Part shown: positions 1 to 11,169 of the stretch, one piece after another
Layout: every line of letters starts with the position of its first letter
How positions within the stretch are numbered: the stretch's first letter is position 1
Origin: an uncultured Victivallales bacterium
GTDB taxonomy: Bacteria > Verrucomicrobiota > Lentisphaeria > Oligosphaerales > JAFGRS01
Assembly (NCBI GenBank): GCA_903834675.1
Contig: CAILKC010000005.1
Location: 1-11,169, forward strand
Length of the DNA: 11,169 bases
Direction of reading: 5' to 3'
The notes under the pieces: generated by a model
The model's database searches: none
Told to the model about the DNA's origin: nothing
Seen by the model: the letters and a program-made list of their open reading frames with translations, nothing else
Position numbers and translations under genes: made by a program

Positions 1-851
1 AGCTTCTCGTTGCTCCAGGGGCGCTTACCGACGCCGAAGTCCATCTTGAATGTCTTCATGAAAGCGACGGCGCGCGCCAGCTCTTCGTGGTCGTACAGGC
101 CGCGTTCCATCCGGCCTTGGACGCCAACCATGTCGTAAGAGACGGTGCCCATGCCGAGGTACTGTTGGAAGAGGTTCCGACGCACGTCCGAGCCGATGAT
201 GCCCATGGAGACGCTGCCGACCGAGAGGTAGTTCTTGCCACGCATCTCGCCCACCGCGGCGGCGGCCCGCGCAAAGCGCAGGAGGCGGGTGGCGACGAAG
301 TCATTCAGCGGCTCCTTCTCGTCCTCGAGGTCGGGCGAGTAGATCGAGAAGATCGGGCGCTTCTTCTCGTCCATGGCGGCGCAGAAGGCCTTGAGCCAGA
401 CGGCGCCAGGGCGGTCGGTCTGGTTCAGGCCATAGGCGGCTTGGGTCCACTCGGTGCTGCCGACGCCCATGCAGGCGCTCATCAGTTCATCGCTGTAGGC
501 CCAACTGCGGCTGATCCAGATATTGGCGCTGACGCCTTGGGTGGCGTAGTACGCCTGGGCCACGGCGCCAGAGCGCGGGCCGTAGACGATCTCGGGCGCG
601 ACCACGATGCGCACCGCCCGGCCGCCGGGCAGCGTCACCTTGCTGGTGATCAGGTCATAGACCTTCTCTACCAAGCGCCAGGTTTGCGCCGCGTTGCTCT
701 CGTAGGCGCCGGTACGCCCATCGGCCACCGGCGTGATGGCGATCGTTGGCACGGGCCCCACCAGCGTCGTGGCAGACGGCGTGAAACCGCGCACGGCAGC
801 AGCTTTGGCAGCGAAATCGGGGCGGCAGGAACAGCAGCACGTCGAAGCCAT
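1..851 (-). CDS. fucI: L-fucose isomerase, N-terminal part (runs off left edge)
   Basis: This is the N-terminal 283 codons of an L-fucose isomerase, which interconverts L-fucose and L-fuculose using Mn2+ in the cytoplasm. Recalled E. coli FucI aligns along the whole visible length: the start block with PVADG at residues 41-45, RPGAVW at 147-152, RLLRFARA at 189-196, and a GK-YLS-G-VSMGI-GS block at 205-221. The family is about 590 residues, so roughly half is present. The metal-binding Glu, Asp and His lie in the missing C-terminal half, so catalytic competence cannot be judged. The ATG at 851 is preceded by AGGAAAAGG about 7 nt upstream. Relative to E. coli there is an N-terminal extension of about 30 residues carrying an odd cysteine cluster (Cys 5, 6, 7 and 9). 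Later GTG codons at residues 20, 31 or 34 are possible starts but lack a Shine-Dalgarno. The gene sits about 115 bp downstream of a MITE-like element. The D-arabinose/L-fucose isomerase family call is secure; exact substrate is not. Confidence 0.93.
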   Translation of the reverse strand, partial: MASTCCCSCRPDFAAKAAAVRGFTPSATTLVGPVPTIAITPVADGRTGAYESNAAQTWRLVEKVYDLITSKVTLPGGRAVRIVVAPEIVYGPRSGAVAQAYYATQGVSANIWISRSWAYSDELMSACMGVGSTEWTQAAYGLNQTDRPGAVWLKAFCAAMDEKKRPIFSIYSPDLEDEKEPLNDFVATRLLRFARAAAAVGEMRGKNYLSVGSVSMGIIGSDVRRNLFQQYLGMGTVSYDMVGVQGRMERGLYDHEELARAVAFMKTFKMDFGVGKRPWSNEK

Positions 852-956: not shown

Positions 957-966
957 GCTGACCTCC
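957..966. repeat. Target-site duplication, left copy (element 1)
   Basis: GCTGACCTCC directly abuts the left inverted end of the 967-1234 element. It is identical to the 10 bases at 1235-1244 that directly follow the right end. Confidence 0.8.
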
Positions 967-1234
967 CAGGGCGGTTTCAAGAAAGCGGGCTGGGCGGCGC
1001 AACAACCCGTGGTCTGTCTGCCGTATCTGGTTGCGCGAGAACACCCGCCGTCAGTCATGGCACAGGCGCCAAGCCAAAGCGGTGTCGCGGTCGCCGTCGG
1101 CGACCTTGCCACGCGCACCCCACATGGCCGAGGCGCGATATGGACTGCGTGCGGCAGAGGGCCGCGGACGCGGCCCGTCGACGCCGCTTTCACTGCCGAC
1201 GGTACGACAGCGGTCGTTTCTTGAAACAGCCCTG
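967..1234. mobile_element. MITE-like element 1, 268 bp, no transposase
   Basis: The left end is CAGGGCGGTTTCAAGAAA (967-984). The right end is its reverse complement, TTTCTTGAAACAGCCCTG (1217-1234), with one mismatch in 18. The element is flanked by a perfect 10-bp direct repeat, GCTGACCTCC, at 957-966 and 1235-1244, as expected of a target-site duplication. The interior carries two strong hairpins: GGTCGCC/GGCGACC with a 3-nt loop (1089-1105) and GGGCCGCG/CGCGGCCC with a 2-nt loop (1159-1176). There is no room for a transposase, so it would be non-autonomous and moved in trans. CAGGG termini and 8-10 bp duplications are what I recall for the ISAs1 family. It could still be a remnant with internal deletion. 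A second copy of the ends occurs at 10753-10911. Confidence 0.82.
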
Positions 1235-1244
1235 GCTGACCTCC
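1235..1244. repeat. Target-site duplication, right copy (element 1)
   Basis: GCTGACCTCC immediately follows the right inverted end of the 967-1234 element and matches 957-966 base for base. It lies only 10 bp beyond the stop codon of the propeller gene, so the insertion spared the coding sequence. Confidence 0.8.
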
Positions 1245-1254
1245 GGGCCCGCGC

Positions 1255-4200
1255 TCACTCTTCGGCGCGCAGATGCAGGCCGCAGAGCACGGGCGGGGCC
1301 GGGCTGCCGGGGGCGGCCCGCAGTTCGAGATTGAAGCGGTCGCCGAGGTGGAGGTTGCGGAGTTCGCGCACCACGGTCTGGCGGACAGGGCCGGCGAGGC
1401 GCACCGCCGGCAGGGCGACGCGGCCCTGCACCAGCACGTCAAAGACGCGGTCCAAGGGCTTGGCCTCGGGCTCGGCGAAGACCAGGCGCAGGGCGTAGGT
1501 CGGCGCGGGCTCGGCGGCCAGTTCCGCGGTGGTCTTGGGAAAGGCAAGGTCGAGACTGGGCCCGCCGCCGCTGGGATTGTCGGTTGAACGGGCCACGCGG
1601 CGGCCGCGGCCGCTGATGATAAAAGCGATGGCCTGGCCGGGCTTCCAGCCTGGCCGCGAGACGACTTCGCGGAGCAGCGGGGCAAGGTCGGGCGAGCGTT
1701 GGGCGGGGGTCGCGGCGCCGACGGTCGGCCAGGGCGGCACGATCCAGCGCACCTCGGCCTTGGTGAGGGGCCGGCTGCTCAGCTCGGCAGGAGCCTTGCC
1801 AAAGGCTTGGGCGTCATCGGCGGCCTGCGCCCGGATGACGACCTCGGTGACCTCGTCCGAGGCCTCCTCGACGGTGAAGCAGAGGGCGGCGGCAGTAAGG
1901 GTGTCTCCGGCTGCCAGCGGGACCTTGGCGAAGCGGATGCCAACAGTCTGCTCGGTCTTGTCGCGGACCAGTTCCAGGTCACTGCTGCCGTGGGCTACGA
2001 TGCCATTGGCTTCCTCGGCATCGTCGAGGGGCGTCGCGACCGTCAAGCGTAGGTGCCGGGAAAGCTCCTCCGGGCTCAGCAGGTCAATGCTCAGGCGCAG
2101 CTCGCCCTGGACCCCACTGGCAGCAATCCAGGGCAGGCCCCCGCTGAACTCGGCGCTGGGTTGCTGGAACCAGGTCAGCGCGGCGCCCTCGAGGGTGATC
2201 GGCAGACTGGGCGATGGGCCGCCCACCAGGGGGAACTCGAACCACAGCGGCCCGGCGGGTTCGCGGCGGTCGCCGGGGGCCCCGAGGTTGACCGCGAGGT
2301 CGAGGATGCGCCCGCTGCCGCGGGGGATGTCATTGGCGGTCCACGAGTCAAGGTCGGGCGCCGAGACGAAGGCCAGCGAGGTCTGGTTCTGGTAGCTGCA
2401 GGTGCAGGTGCGAGTGTAGTCCGGCGCATTCAGGACGCCGTCGGCCACGATGAGGTTCGAGGTGCAGCCGCTCTTGAAGCCGCCCAGGTTGGCGGTGCCG
2501 CTGTCGGTAGCCAGGTCGTAGAACCCGGCGGCGCCGGAACGGAAGGTGAGCAGGTACTCCGAGGCCACCACGGCGTTGCAGCCGTAACGGCGGTGGTAGG
2601 ACCAGGGGATCGGCTGCCGCGTCAAAGGATGCGGGCGCATCACGGTATTGCCGGTCAACAGTTCGACCGCACCACCGGTGGTACTGACGGCCGAGGTGTA
2701 GATCGTCTTGCCATGCAGCATCACGGGTCCGCCGAAGGAGCCCTTATGGTCCCAGAGCAGCTCGCCGTCGCGGCTGCGCAAGGCCATCAGCCGTTCGGCG
2801 GACTCGTCGCGCAGGGCATCGCGGGAGGCGCGCCCGGCCTGCAGCAGGACCCCGTGCTCGGCGGAGACGCTGAGCCAGGTGCCAAAGACGCCCTCGCGGC
2901 GCTGCCAGCGTTCGCGGCCGGTCCGCAGGTCCAGAGCCAGGAGCACCGGCGCGTCGCTGGGCATACGCCCGCGCCTTTTGAGGCGTTCGACGACCGCGCT
3001 GGGGAGGGCGTCGATGCAGTAGAGCGTGTCGGCACTGGCACAGATGGCATTATGGCGGAAGCCGAGACGGGCCGGCCGGCTCCAGAGCACGGCCCCGCTG
3101 TGGCGGTCAAGGGCGGCCAGGCCGCGACTGGAGCTGAGGTCATAGTCGTCCGCGGCCTCGCCCTTCTCGATGTCGTGAATCCGGGAGAAGGCCGCATAGC
3201 CCGTGCCGCCGATGAGCACGTCGCCGACGACCCCGAGGTAGCCCCATTCGGGAGGCTGGCCGCTGGCCGCGTCGGCAGGCAGGGCAAGAGTGGCTAGTGT
3301 CTGCCCGGTGGCGGGGTCGAGGGCAAGGCACTGCTTGCCGGCCAGCAGGTAGAGCCGGTCCGGGGTGGCGGCGAGGTTGGCTCCGCGGGCGTTGGCGCCG
3401 GGGATGTGGCGCTGGTTGTAGCTGATATCCAGGGGGTCCGGGCAATAGGTCGAATCGTAGTAGATCCCGGCGGTGCCCAGATCGGTAAACTCGCGCCGCC
3501 AGAGCGTCACGCCGGTGTAGACATCGCGGGCGCTCAGCGTGTTGATTCCCTGGATAAAGAGCCGCCCGCCGATGACCTGTTCGCCGGGGCCGTGGCCGTG
3601 CCGGGGCAGGACATCCTGATGGCTGTTGCCGCCGAACCAGAGCAGGCCGAGCGGCGCCCGGACCCGCGTATCGTTGCTGCTGGCGGAGTTCGCCGCATCG
3701 CCGTAGAGATGGGTCCAGGCCGCTGCGCCAGGGAGGGCGCCCTGGCGAGTCAGAAGCAGCCCACCGGGCGCTTCGGCCAGCTCAACCCCCGGCAGGTCGG
3801 CCGCCGCCGCCAGATGCCGCAGACGGGCCGCAGCGCCAGCGAGATAGAGCCTGCCACCGTAGGGTCGCACGGAGGCGTAGAGGGCCTGGAGCCAGGCGGT
3901 GTCCGCGTCCGCCGGGATACCGCCGACGACGGTGAGCAGCGCCAGGTACGGCGGCGCCCGAAAGTCCTGCACCGTACCGAGGTGGACGCTGGCGCGGTCA
4001 CCGTAGAGGCCGCGGTCGCGCAGGTATTGGCGCAGGGTCTCGACGGTCTTCGGGTCGCGGTTGACGGCTACAACCCGCAGGCCGGGGCGGGCCAGCAGCG
4101 CCTCGATGGCCGCCGGCTCGCTAACGTCGTAGGCCAGGGCCCAGCCGAGCGGCAGAGCCAGGCCTGCGGTCAGACCCTCGTACGGGTGGCCGGCGCGGGT

Positions 4201-5592
4201 CGGCGCGGCCACCGTGGCTGCGGCCGTGGCCGCGGGCGGCGGCGCGGTCCCGGTGGCCGCGCCAAAGCAGGCGAGGCCACCTTCGGCGGTGACCGCGAAC
4301 AGGCGCTGGTCGGCGGCGATCAGGCGGGTCACGGTGCCCTCGAGGTCGAGCGTCCACAGGGGCGTCGGCGGCGAGGCGCCGAGGTCGATGGCGGTGATTC
4401 TGCCCCTGGCGGCGGCATAGAGCCGGTTGCCGGCGCGCATCAGGGCCCCACTGCCAGCGATGGGGAGTTCCCAGGCCGGGGCGATTTCCCCGCGTTTACG
4501 GGTGACTGGTTTCGGTTCGGCCCCGGTGGCTTCAGAGGACCGCGGTTGCGGTTCCCAGAGTTGGAAGGCGCGGACCTTATCCCCGCCCAGGATCAACATG
4601 CCGTCACTCAGCACGGGTTGGTGCGTGCCCTTCCAGGCCGTGTAGGCATTGCCTGAAGCGCCGTCGTAGAGGACCGTCGCCAGGCCGCGGCAGTTCAGCA
4701 CGTAGCGGCCGTCGGTGCATACGTAGGAGCCGCCCTCGAGCTTGCGATAGGCTGCTTCGGCGGTGTCCTGGAGGGTGGAGCCCTCAAGGTGGAACCAGCG
4801 CAGGGCGCCGCTGGCGCGGTCGAGGCCGGCGGGCACGGCCCGGCCATTGGGCACCACCAGCAGGTCGCCGGCCGCCGCGAAAGCGCCCTGAGGCGCAAGC
4901 GCGCCGAACGATTCCGCGCCGGGATGCGGCTGTTTCAGGTAAAGGTCGCCCAGCAGTCCCTGCGTCCAGACGGGGTTGCCGTTGCGGGAGTCGACTGCGC
5001 GGATGACGGTGCCCATGAAGGGCCAGATGCCGGCGCCGAAATAGACGGTGTCCCCGACCAGTACGGGTCCGCCACGGGCACACCAGGCCGATACCAAACG
5101 GCCATTGCCGAGCACCCGGCGGTCGTCGCGCCCAGCGCGGACGCGCCAAAGCTGGCGACCGTCGCCGAGGTCCCAGGTGTAGAGCCAGCCATCGTCGCTG
5201 ACCGCATGCACCCGGCCGTCGTGCAGCACGGGCGGCAGGCGCACCGGCGCGTCAGTCACGGCCTGCCAGAGAGTGCGGCCGCTGCGCGTATCGAGAGCGC
5301 TGACGCTGTCGTCACGGTTCGAAGAGAAGACCAGGGTGGTGCCCGCCACGACGGGCTCGTACGCCCGGTCGAAGGGCATGCGGTCCTGGTTGACCGGGTC
5401 TTCCCAGCACGACACCAGCGGGGGCAACTGCCGAGCCCAGAGCAGACTCGGCCGGTCAGGCAACTGTTCGTTGGAGGCAGCGGAACGGCCAGCGTCGTGT
5501 TGCCACATAGGCCAGTCCGCCGCCGAACCGGCCAGCGCCGAACACACCGCCCAGGCGGCCAGGCGCCAACAATAACCCCTTCTCCCGGCCAT
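1255..5592 (-). CDS. Secreted PQQ-like beta-propeller with methyltransferase-like and malectin-like domains
   Basis: This is a 1445-residue exported multidomain protein. Residues 1-25 form a signal peptide with a basic start, a hydrophobic core and AGSAA before DWPMW. Residues 26-450 are a first PQQ-type beta-propeller (WPMWQHDAGR, repeated LYA..G.I.AID-type blades). Residues 470-620 resemble a Rossmann-fold methyltransferase, but the GxGxG loop is absent (ALAYDVSE at 485-492) and the acidic ribose-binding residue is replaced (AVNRDP, 509-514), so it is probably non-catalytic. Residues 625-1090 are a second propeller ending in a Cys-rich block (GC at 1004-1005, SGCTSN at 1041-1046, RTCTCSYQNQTSLA at 1061-1074). 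Residues 1195-1350 resemble the DNRLRE-like beta-sandwich, and 1365-1445 are malectin-like (LRLVFAEPEA, RVFDVLVQG). The role is unknown; an extracytoplasmic carbohydrate-binding or scaffold function is inferred. The ATG at 5592 was chosen because it begins the signal peptide and follows AGGTGACC; an ATG 48 bp upstream is in frame but lies inside the 34-bp palindrome. Confidence 0.88.
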   Translation of the reverse strand: MAGRRGYCWRLAAWAVCSALAGSAADWPMWQHDAGRSAASNEQLPDRPSLLWARQLPPLVSCWEDPVNQDRMPFDRAYEPVVAGTTLVFSSNRDDSVSALDTRSGRTLWQAVTDAPVRLPPVLHDGRVHAVSDDGWLYTWDLGDGRQLWRVRAGRDDRRVLGNGRLVSAWCARGGPVLVGDTVYFGAGIWPFMGTVIRAVDSRNGNPVWTQGLLGDLYLKQPHPGAESFGALAPQGAFAAAGDLLVVPNGRAVPAGLDRASGALRWFHLEGSTLQDTAEAAYRKLEGGSYVCTDGRYVLNCRGLATVLYDGASGNAYTAWKGTHQPVLSDGMLILGGDKVRAFQLWEPQPRSSEATGAEPKPVTRKRGEIAPAWELPIAGSGALMRAGNRLYAAARGRITAIDLGASPPTPLWTLDLEGTVTRLIAADQRLFAVTAEGGLACFGAATGTAPPPAATAAATVAAPTRAGHPYEGLTAGLALPLGWALAYDVSEPAAIEALLARPGLRVVAVNRDPKTVETLRQYLRDRGLYGDRASVHLGTVQDFRAPPYLALLTVVGGIPADADTAWLQALYASVRPYGGRLYLAGAAARLRHLAAAADLPGVELAEAPGGLLLTRQGALPGAAAWTHLYGDAANSASSNDTRVRAPLGLLWFGGNSHQDVLPRHGHGPGEQVIGGRLFIQGINTLSARDVYTGVTLWRREFTDLGTAGIYYDSTYCPDPLDISYNQRHIPGANARGANLAATPDRLYLLAGKQCLALDPATGQTLATLALPADAASGQPPEWGYLGVVGDVLIGGTGYAAFSRIHDIEKGEAADDYDLSSSRGLAALDRHSGAVLWSRPARLGFRHNAICASADTLYCIDALPSAVVERLKRRGRMPSDAPVLLALDLRTGRERWQRREGVFGTWLSVSAEHGVLLQAGRASRDALRDESAERLMALRSRDGELLWDHKGSFGGPVMLHGKTIYTSAVSTTGGAVELLTGNTVMRPHPLTRQPIPWSYHRRYGCNAVVASEYLLTFRSGAAGFYDLATDSGTANLGGFKSGCTSNLIVADGVLNAPDYTRTCTCSYQNQTSLAFVSAPDLDSWTANDIPRGSGRILDLAVNLGAPGDRREPAGPLWFEFPLVGGPSPSLPITLEGAALTWFQQPSAEFSGGLPWIAASGVQGELRLSIDLLSPEELSRHLRLTVATPLDDAEEANGIVAHGSSDLELVRDKTEQTVGIRFAKVPLAAGDTLTAAALCFTVEEASDEVTEVVIRAQAADDAQAFGKAPAELSSRPLTKAEVRWIVPPWPTVGAATPAQRSPDLAPLLREVVSRPGWKPGQAIAFIISGRGRRVARSTDNPSGGGPSLDLAFPKTTAELAAEPAPTYALRLVFAEPEAKPLDRVFDVLVQGRVALPAVRLAGPVRQTVVRELRNLHLGDRFNLELRAAPGSPAPPVLCGLHLRAEE

Positions 5593-5612
5593 GGTCACCT
5601 GCCGCTGCGTTG

Positions 5613-5646
5613 GGCGTCTTGCCGCCCGCGCGGGCGGCAAGACGCC
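5613..5646. repeat. Perfect 34-bp palindrome between regulator and propeller genes
   Basis: The first half is GGCGTCTTGCCGCCCGC and the second half is its exact reverse complement, with no spacer. It starts 8 bp past the response-regulator stop codon and ends 20 bp before the propeller start codon. In RNA it would form a very stable hairpin of about 15 bp with a 4-nt loop. On the minus strand it is followed by CAACGCAGCG, not by a run of U. It is therefore not a textbook intrinsic terminator; a transcript-end, attenuation or mRNA-stability structure, or a dimeric protein-binding site, are all possible. It separates the two-component operon from the propeller gene. Confidence 0.9.
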
Positions 5647-5654
5647 GCCTGAAA

Positions 5655-6467
5655 TCAGTACGACGAGCCGCGGCCCATAAAGTACTTCAGCCAGGCCATG
5701 AGGCCCTTCTCGCCGCTAGCGTCGTACTTGGTGGGATCGATGCAAGATTCCTTGGCGATGTTGACCAGTGGCGCATAGCCGGTCTTGCCGTGATGCACGG
5801 TCTTCTTGAAAACGAAGCCCTTCTCGCCCGCCGTCGAGGACAACACGATGATCGGGATGCCCTGGGACTCGCCGCGTGCCTCGTAATCCTTCTTGAGGGT
5901 CGCGATGAGGGTCCAGCCATCCATCACGGGCATGTTCAAATCAACCACCATGAGGATGGGATCGCGCTTGTAGGTCTGGCGAATCTCCTCAAGTTTGTCG
6001 AGGGCTTCCTGGCCGTTCCCCGCCTCAAAGATGACGATGTTCGCGTCGTTCTTCGAGATGTCCCTGGCCACGCGACGCCGGATGGCGCGCTCGTCATCGA
6101 CGATGATGACCGTATTGCTGCCGGGGTCCATGCGGCGCTTGATACTGTCCAGCAACTGCGAGTAGTCCTCGGAATCACTGCGCCCGCCCGGCCCCGTCGG
6201 GGCGTTCGGCGCACCCGGCCCGCTCGGCGCACTCGGCGCACTCGGCGCACTGGCTGGGGTCGCCGCGCGCGGCGCGCTCGTCCGCATGGCGCTGAGTTCA
6301 GTGGGAGCGCTGGACCGGCTGGGGGCGCTGGGCTCACTGGGCGCGCTAGGCTCACTGGGCTCGCTGGGTGGGGTCGCCGCGCTGGGGGCGCTGGGGCGGC
6401 TAGGTTTGCCTGGGACGCCCAGCCCGCTCGGCCCATCCACATCAATGTACTTACGCTCGGTCGTCAT
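5655..6467 (-). CDS. Receiver-only response regulator with Ser/Ala/Pro-rich linker
   Basis: This 270-residue cytoplasmic protein has three parts. Residues 1-20 are a short non-repetitive head. Residues 21-95 are a low-complexity linker of APS/EPS repeats. Residues 117-250 are a CheY-type receiver: the acidic pair D124/D125 (IIVDDE), phospho-acceptor D176 (VVDLNMPVMDG), and S210 at the switch position (PIIVLSS). The usual Lys-Pro after the fifth strand is not evident; K239 (NIAKES) is the best candidate for the conserved lysine. No DNA-binding, cyclase or other output domain follows, so it probably acts by protein contact or as a phosphate carrier. The ATG at 6467 follows a near-perfect AGGAGG seven bases upstream. 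The gene lies 43 bp after the kinase stop codon, which makes the kinase its likely partner (inference). A shorter start at Met61 would lie inside the linker and is unlikely. Confidence 0.9.
   Translation of the reverse strand: MTTERKYIDVDGPSGLGVPGKPSRPSAPSAATPPSEPSEPSAPSEPSAPSRSSAPTELSAMRTSAPRAATPASAPSAPSAPSGPGAPNAPTGPGGRSDSEDYSQLLDSIKRRMDPGSNTVIIVDDERAIRRRVARDISKNDANIVIFEAGNGQEALDKLEEIRQTYKRDPILMVVDLNMPVMDGWTLIATLKKDYEARGESQGIPIIVLSSTAGEKGFVFKKTVHHGKTGYAPLVNIAKESCIDPTKYDASGEKGLMAWLKYFMGRGSSY
6183..6407 (-). repeat. Codon-level Ser/Ala/Pro/Glu repeat tract in the regulator
   Basis: The DNA that encodes residues 21-95 of the response regulator is a degenerate run of 9-bp modules (on the plus strand GGCGCACTC, GGGCTCACT and similar). 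They encode AlaProSer or GluProSer triplets. Such tracts expand and contract by slippage, so the length may differ between strains. Confidence 0.75.
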
Positions 6468-10743: not shown

Positions 10744-10752
10744 GGTTGGAGG
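10744..10752. repeat. Imperfect target-site duplication, left copy (element 2)
   Basis: GGTTGGAGG abuts the CAGGG end of the 10753-10911 element. It matches 10912-10920 at eight of nine bases. Confidence 0.62.
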
Positions 10753-10911
10753 CAGGGCTGTTTCTTTCACGGGCGGTAGGCGCCTTGGAGCCGGCGGGAT
10801 ACCGCGAACCCGCCCGGAACGGGCTTGGCATCGCGGGCTCCAGGGCGGCAAGCGGGGTCATGGCAGACGCCTGCCAGATCCAGCGGGGGTCTCTTTCTTG
10901 AAACAGCCCTG
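10753..10911. mobile_element. MITE-like element 2, 159 bp, same ends as element 1
   Basis: The left end begins CAGGGCTGTTTC (10753-10764). The right end, TTTCTTGAAACAGCCCTG (10894-10911), is identical over 18 bp to the right end of element 1. The left end matches its partner for 12 bp and then diverges (TTTC in place of AAGAAA), so it is partly decayed. Nine-bp flanks GGTTGGAGG (10744-10752) and GGTTGAAGG (10912-10920) differ at one base, as expected of an ageing target-site duplication. The interior can form stems, including GGAGCC (10787-10792) with GGCTCC (10836-10841) and GCCCG-GAA-CGGGC. No transposase is present. Confidence 0.75.
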
Positions 10912-10920
10912 GGTTGAAGG
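10912..10920. repeat. Imperfect target-site duplication, right copy (element 2)
   Basis: GGTTGAAGG directly follows the CCCTG end of the 10753-10911 element. It differs from the left copy by a single G/A change. Confidence 0.62.
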
Positions 10921-10979
10921 GTTTGGATGTCGGCGCTGGGGCTCTAGGTTAGGCAGGCAGACGATAATGAAGAAGGTGT

Positions 10980-11169
10980 GGAGCGGCCGCGGCTCGCGGC
11001 CAGAGACGACCCGACGGTCGGCGCTCCCAGGATGATGGAGCGGCCGCGGCTCGCGGCCAGAGACGACCCAACGGTCGGCGCTCCCAGGATGATGGAGCGG
11101 CCGCGGCTCGCGGCCAGAGACGACCCAACGGTCGGCGCTCCCAGGATGATGGAGCGGCCGCGGCTCGCG
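10980..11169. repeat. 57-bp tandem repeat, three full units plus a partial
   Basis: Full units start at 10980, 11037 and 11094; a fourth starts at 11151 and is cut by the window edge after 19 bp. The units are identical except for one G/A change at position 34 of the first. Each unit contains three nested or adjacent complementary pairs: GGAGC (1-5) with GCTCC (44-48), GGCCGCG (6-12) with CGCGGCC (16-22), and CGACC (28-32) with GGTCG (37-41). Together these form a three-way junction. The single variant base falls in a loop. The period is a multiple of three and one frame per strand stays open, but no start, Shine-Dalgarno or gene context supports translation. Confidence 0.93.

Follow-up and report, generated by a model that had tools for sequence, protein, structure and literature searches.

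We analyzed a window of 11,169 nucleotides (the whole stretch of DNA considered here), which begins within fucI, the gene for L-fucose isomerase, and continues through an ORF for a PQQ/beta-propeller protein. A short element (element 1) is located between these two genes, and a second, smaller one (element 2) was found close to the other end of the window (Table 1). The presumed ATG of fucI is at 849–851. The initial annotation had placed element 1 about 115 bp upstream of fucI and 20 bp past the stop codon of the propeller gene, and both distances proved to be correct. Two other repetitive regions were observed: GC repeats with a 9-bp period at 6172–6419, in the Pro/Ser/Ala-rich N-terminal part of a response-regulator ORF, and, at 10979–11169, a GC-rich unit of 57 bp repeated in tandem (3.4 copies with 99% matches) up to the window end.

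Table 1. Features of the window discussed in the text
Feature	Position	Strand	Sequence or remark
fucI, L-fucose isomerase	1-851	-	cut by window edge; Fucose_iso_N1/N2 domains
Target-site duplication, left copy	957-966	.	GCTGACCTCC, 10 bp
Element 1, non-coding ISAs1-type MITE, 268 bp, strongly foldable	967-1234	.	based on sequence, fold and shuffles
Left terminal inverted repeat of element 1	967-984	+	CAGGGCGGTTTCAAGAAA
Interior block of element 1, 57 bp	1072-1128	.	84-89% identical to three places in G001
Right terminal inverted repeat of element 1	1217-1234	-	TTTCTTGAAACAGCCCTG; reads CAGGGCTGTTTCAAGAAA on the minus strand
Target-site duplication, right copy	1235-1244	.	GCTGACCTCC, exact 10-bp match to left copy
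PQQ/beta-propeller protein ORF	1255-5640	-	ends 20 bp from element 1
Element 2 left flank	10744-10752	.	GGTTGGAGG
Element 2, 159 bp	10753-10911	.	both ends share the outer 12 bp, CAGGGCTGTTTC
Interior block of element 2	10784-10848	.	85-98% over 46-65 bp in G002, G024 and Kiritimatiellae MAG L033
Element 2 right flank	10912-10920	.	GGTTGAAGG

Element 1 is bounded by 18-bp inverted ends that are complementary at 17/18 positions and is flanked on both sides by an exact 10-bp direct repeat, just as the initial annotation had described. The pair of inverted ends was also recovered by a repeat search of the window. In dinucleotide shuffles, the strict combination (18-nt arms with at most one mismatch, a span of 60–600 and an exact 10-bp flanking repeat) occurred in 0/2000 sequences, and 18-nt arms alone, without the duplication, in 30/2000. 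Two looser settings, one with 12-nt arms, up to 3 mismatches and an 8-bp repeat and the other with 18-nt arms, up to 6 mismatches and an 8-bp repeat, were matched in 43/200 and 27/200 shuffles, respectively; in the window, the former returned one further pair besides element 1, at 4714–5212. Because of a C/G match at the edge, the border could formally also be placed at 966–1235, the repeat then being 8 bp, but 967–1234 is favored because elements in Lentisphaerae RIFOXYA12_64_32, a 10.6-Mb draft genome designated G001, begin at CAGGG regardless of the preceding base. The two overlapping ORFs found across element 1 (93 and 153 aa) matched no Pfam family, consistent with the earlier statement that its 268-bp body cannot code for a transposase.

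The right end of element 2 is the full CAGGGCTGTTTCAAGAAA, and its left end diverges after 12 bp. Its 9-bp flanks agree at 8/9 positions, and this mismatch in the duplication suggests that element 2 is older than element 1, whose own jump we infer to have been recent. Two such elements are present within the 11-kb window. Element 2 also overlaps a minus-strand ORF with a BNR domain, at the mechanically assigned 5' end of that ORF.

The initial annotation had pointed to relatives as the place to look for an empty site. One genome, G002, was found to be syntenic: positions 1–972 of the window matched it at 86% and positions 1262–5538 at 81% DNA identity, with the 6 bases by which the first match reaches into element 1 taken as chance. 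The interval between the two matches measures about 0.9 kb in G002 and holds an ORF with a YkuD domain; paired ends were not detected in it. At the corresponding place, this one syntenic relative lacks element 1 but carries another gene, and no clean empty site was identified. The YkuD (L,D-transpeptidase) ORF of G002 (L159, 2563–3303) is flanked by the propeller gene and fucI; the window has no such ORF. In the fucI stretches of G001, G024 and G029 (76–77% alike over fucI; synteny unexamined), no such ends were present. The shuffles under the strict settings, the second element in the window, the numerous short copies with paired ends and 8–10 bp duplications in some other genomes (see below) and the absence from the syntenic relative all support the transposition event proposed originally.

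Similar ends occur in other genomes. The pattern CAGGGCKGTTTCAAGAAA matched 67 stretches in one-per-species genomes, 9 of which also had a partner end and an exact 9–10 bp duplication. These came from G001 (2 stretches), Victivallales Loclat_bin-09902 (2), a MAG labelled Akkermansia TH-08apr19-195 (1) and the cyanobacterium UBA11153 (4, all in one MAG), and a further stretch, in Kiritimatiellae STF1_228, had a duplication with one mismatch. End-bearing stretches without partner and duplication (e.g., in Nitrososphaerota and Clostridia) probably reflect chance or decay and were not counted. Paired ends without a flank duplication were found in five Pseudanabaena stretches (L027, L039, L042, L045 and L068). 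Two stretches of viral contigs had one exact end each and no partner end nearby, and were judged to be chance matches; in 16 plasmid records, the best matches covered 22–50 bp with E values of 0.08 to 0.9. Element 1 as a whole was not found in other genomes among the best 3 candidates per genome.

We further counted ends in six whole genomes chosen for having the end, allowing up to 2 mismatches and using the reversed pattern as a control. G001 contained 403 sites (204+199), and the other counts were 10+6 in G002, 48+42 in G003 (a MAG labelled Akkermansia), 1+1 in G004, 1+3 in G005 and 8+9 in G006. The control gave no match in the six genomes except for a single one in G003. Within the class of G001, ends were matched in 47/197 genomes and the reversed control in about 31/197, with 1–2 sites each; because of this control, single matches are regarded as background, and most of the 47 genomes are at background level. 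Those that stood out were G001, G002 (10+6), G009 (5+5) and G024 (45+35).

ISAs1 duplications range from 8 to 10 bp in size. In a survey of 19 loci chosen for their ends (16 in G001, 2 in G003 and 1 in G024), with the right end taken by best flank match, exact duplications of 8–10 bp were present in 22 of 28 candidate pairs (19 of 9 bp, 2 of 10 bp and 1 of 8 bp). The remaining pairs included one with one mismatch, one with two mismatches and four with no duplication; the G024 locus had none. Among 16 places fetched from G002, 4 yielded a pair whose duplication had no more than one mismatch, and G009 yielded such a pair at both of its two places, the elements being 335 bp long.

The initial annotation had also suggested a search for an ISAs1-type transposase gene with the same ends. 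Such ends, with 0–2 changes, were found around ISAs1-type genes in two settings. In Pseudanabaena, stretches of 1215 bp (L017; left end exact, right end with one change) and 1223 bp (L042; right end with two changes) enclose broken-frame pieces of ISAs1-family genes, which scored 194.6 and 50.9 bits (L017) and 100.6 bits (L042) against NF033564 (cut-off, 70 bits); PF13808 was matched in both. In G003, a 2476-bp stretch (L102, 95–2570) has CAGGGCTGATTCAAGAAA, one base off the ends in the window, at both of its ends, and the same sequence also terminates the 141-bp MITEs of this genome. Its 449-aa frame begins with PF14236 (DruA), followed by PF13808 and PF01609, and scored 103.3 bits against NF033564, and its 240-aa frame matched the C-terminus of ISAs1 below the threshold (37.1 bits). 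No flank duplication was present around the 2476-bp element. Altogether, 3/5 gene pieces passed the NF033564 cut-off, those below it being the 131-aa piece of L017 and the 240-aa piece of L102. When the 449-aa frame was used as a protein query, 1732 relatives (E ≤0.001) were obtained among 7996 candidates scored. The predicted DruA-ISAs1 fusion is common in databases, as PF14236 and PF13808 were both present in 119/120 relatives among the matches listed (counted by hand).

G001, G002 and G024 each yielded no ISAs1-type gene bounded by these ends. Candidate partner genes sought there with NF033564 and PF14236, and in G001 and G002 also with PF13808, gave either no match or matches without the ends nearby: the draft genome of G002 had no match to PF13808 or NF033564, that of G024 had none to NF033564, and G001, despite its 403 end sites, had one ISAs1 match without such ends nearby. 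In another genome, G063, one intact CAGGGCTGTTTC end adjoins ISAs1-type frames in pieces (L266, 168–1900), and a good second end was not found at this locus. We read a frame adjoining these pieces as DruA-like; the DruA family search in G063 gave 0 matches.

With a probability of about 0.93, we interpret element 1 as a non-autonomous MITE with ISAs1-type ends that was moved by an ISAs1-family transposase made elsewhere. After binding to the CAGGG ends of 18 bp, such a transposase would insert the element into target DNA cleaved with a ~10-bp stagger (a cut-and-join mode assumed from what is generally known of such elements), and repair of the gaps would leave the 10-bp duplication. A compatible transposase would act, or would have acted, in the host. 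The assignment to the ISAs1 family made in the initial annotation is in agreement with the nearly identical ends on ISAs1-type genes and with the sizes of ends (14–22 bp, starting with CAGGG) and duplications (10 bp in Frankia mutants) given in the part of a published account that deals with them (PMC11946415). Element 1 shares CAGGG ends within 14–22 bp, a duplication of ~8–10 bp and the lack of transposase coding with ISAs1-type MITEs.

The first alternative is that a transposase of another family, which shares CAGGG ends and 9–10 bp duplications, moved the MITE, and the missing ISAs1 transposase with these ends in G001, G002 and G024 argues for it. However, the ISAs1-type genes found in Pseudanabaena and G003 do lie between ends with 0–2 changes. 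Draft genomes tend to lose multi-copy elements, and these drafts may lack such genes. Eight listed end sites in G001 begin 40–64 bases from a contig start. We therefore consider another family very improbable.

The interiors of these elements bear on a second alternative. The 57-bp interior block of element 1 recurs in G001 (Table 1), and a later part of its interior was 86% identical over 43 bases to G002. In the searches with the interior blocks, the best 3 or 4 candidates per genome were scored and the lists are incomplete; among the loci obtained, neither those of the element 1 block (L204, L111, L197 and L205) nor those of the element 2 block (L219, L230, L233, L179, L220 and L231) were enclosed by CAGGG ends. 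In L233 and L179, a right end was present 225 and 208 bp away from the element 2 block, respectively, and one of the two copies of this block in L033 was inside a paired element. Judged by these sequence matches, the interior parts shared with dispersed repeats were probably captured, and it looks as if CAGGG ends can frame differing hairpin-rich DNA.

Interiors rich in GC hairpins raise the idea that element 1 is a palindromic repeat of the REP/BIME type, mobilized by a RAYT (tyrosine) transposase. REPs are not known to have long terminal inverted repeats or target duplications, both of which element 1 has. Y1_Tnp genes, putatively RAYTs, were present in 4/4 genomes searched, and a verrucomicrobium is described as highly enriched in GTAG REPs in a section of PMC3733652. 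In G001, where element interiors are GC hairpins, CAGGG ends were found on both sides within 250 bp at 26/29, 22/25 and 43/48 sites for three probes (18 loci, 16 of them chosen for ends; the third probe overlaps the others). Because the hairpins mostly have ends on both sides, the idea that they are free REPs was dropped, and a RAYT-moved repeat appears highly unlikely as an explanation of element 1.

A third alternative takes element 1, located between propeller gene and fucI, as a regulatory RNA or an attenuator whose closing stem is formed by the inverted ends. This would fit the strong folding of element 1 on both strands (z −5.1 on plus, −5.6 on minus) and the co-directional genes on either side, but it is extremely improbable. 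It leaves unexplained why element 1 is flanked by an exact 10-bp duplication, why the window has a second element and why relatives have copies with the same ends at many sites; moreover, the window had 0 Rfam matches at gathering thresholds, and the syntenic G002 is devoid of the element. The initial annotation had suggested that the element could change fucI expression or end the upstream transcript. We found no support for this: no sigma-70-like promoter was detected in 800–1400, and the one terminator-like site (minus strand, 945–958; 0.4 expected in shuffles) is located outside element 1. Still, fucI could be affected. Element 1 is predicted to fold strongly if transcription from the propeller gene runs into it, and this could influence the mRNA.

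The locus matters chiefly because elements of this kind have proliferated in bacteria that have received little study. In some Lentisphaerota and their neighbors, short ISAs1-ended elements have expanded, with 403 end sites in a single draft genome of 10.6 Mb. In such genomes, most of which are known through metagenomes, they give rise to repeats, to breaks in the assembly and possibly to regulation. The DruA-ISAs1 fusion with the same kind of end is a testable candidate for the moving enzyme. A limited search of the literature on ISAs1, MITEs, Lentisphaerae and DruA found no description of these elements in the portions of the sources that were accessible. As a tentative proposal, with the odds against it, Lentisphaerota and related bacteria might harbor a large unnamed group of ISAs1-ended MITEs with GC-rich palindromic interiors, at around two hundred copies per genome, that are moved in trans by DruA (DUF4338)-ISAs1 fusions; DruA of the Druantia defense system would in that case have a common origin with a DNA-handling domain of transposons.

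Element 1 is an ordinary kind of element, an insertion of an ISAs1-type MITE, and is itself new as a member. Compared with ISAs1 insertion sequences, it has the same type of 18-bp CAGGG ends and 10-bp duplication, as far as the relevant part of PMC11946415 describes them, and nearly the same ends occur on genes matching NF033564, whereas element 1 is only 268 bp long and has no transposase gene. Its interior matched no insertion sequence in the searches made. Bacterial MITEs, such as Nezha, NEMIS, ERIC and RUP, measure 70–300 bp according to a passage of PMC3733652. Element 1 resembles bacterial MITEs in size, terminal inverted repeats, non-coding and intergenic nature, foldability and flank duplication. 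As they are commonly described, Nezha, NEMIS, ERIC and RUP have ends other than ISAs1-type, and element 1 is set apart from them by its ISAs1-type ends. The GTAG/CGTC REPs covered in part of PMC3733652 share closely spaced GC-rich palindromes with the interiors of the relatives' elements, whereas the palindromes here are inside transposon-type ends with target duplications. The Tn3-derived TIMEs, as outlined in excerpts of PMC4133298, are likewise non-autonomous, with a 262-bp size, a structured core, mosaic derivatives and presumed movement in trans, and differ in having Tn3-type ends of 38 bp and 5–6 bp duplications, compared with 18 bp and 9–10 bp in the elements studied here.
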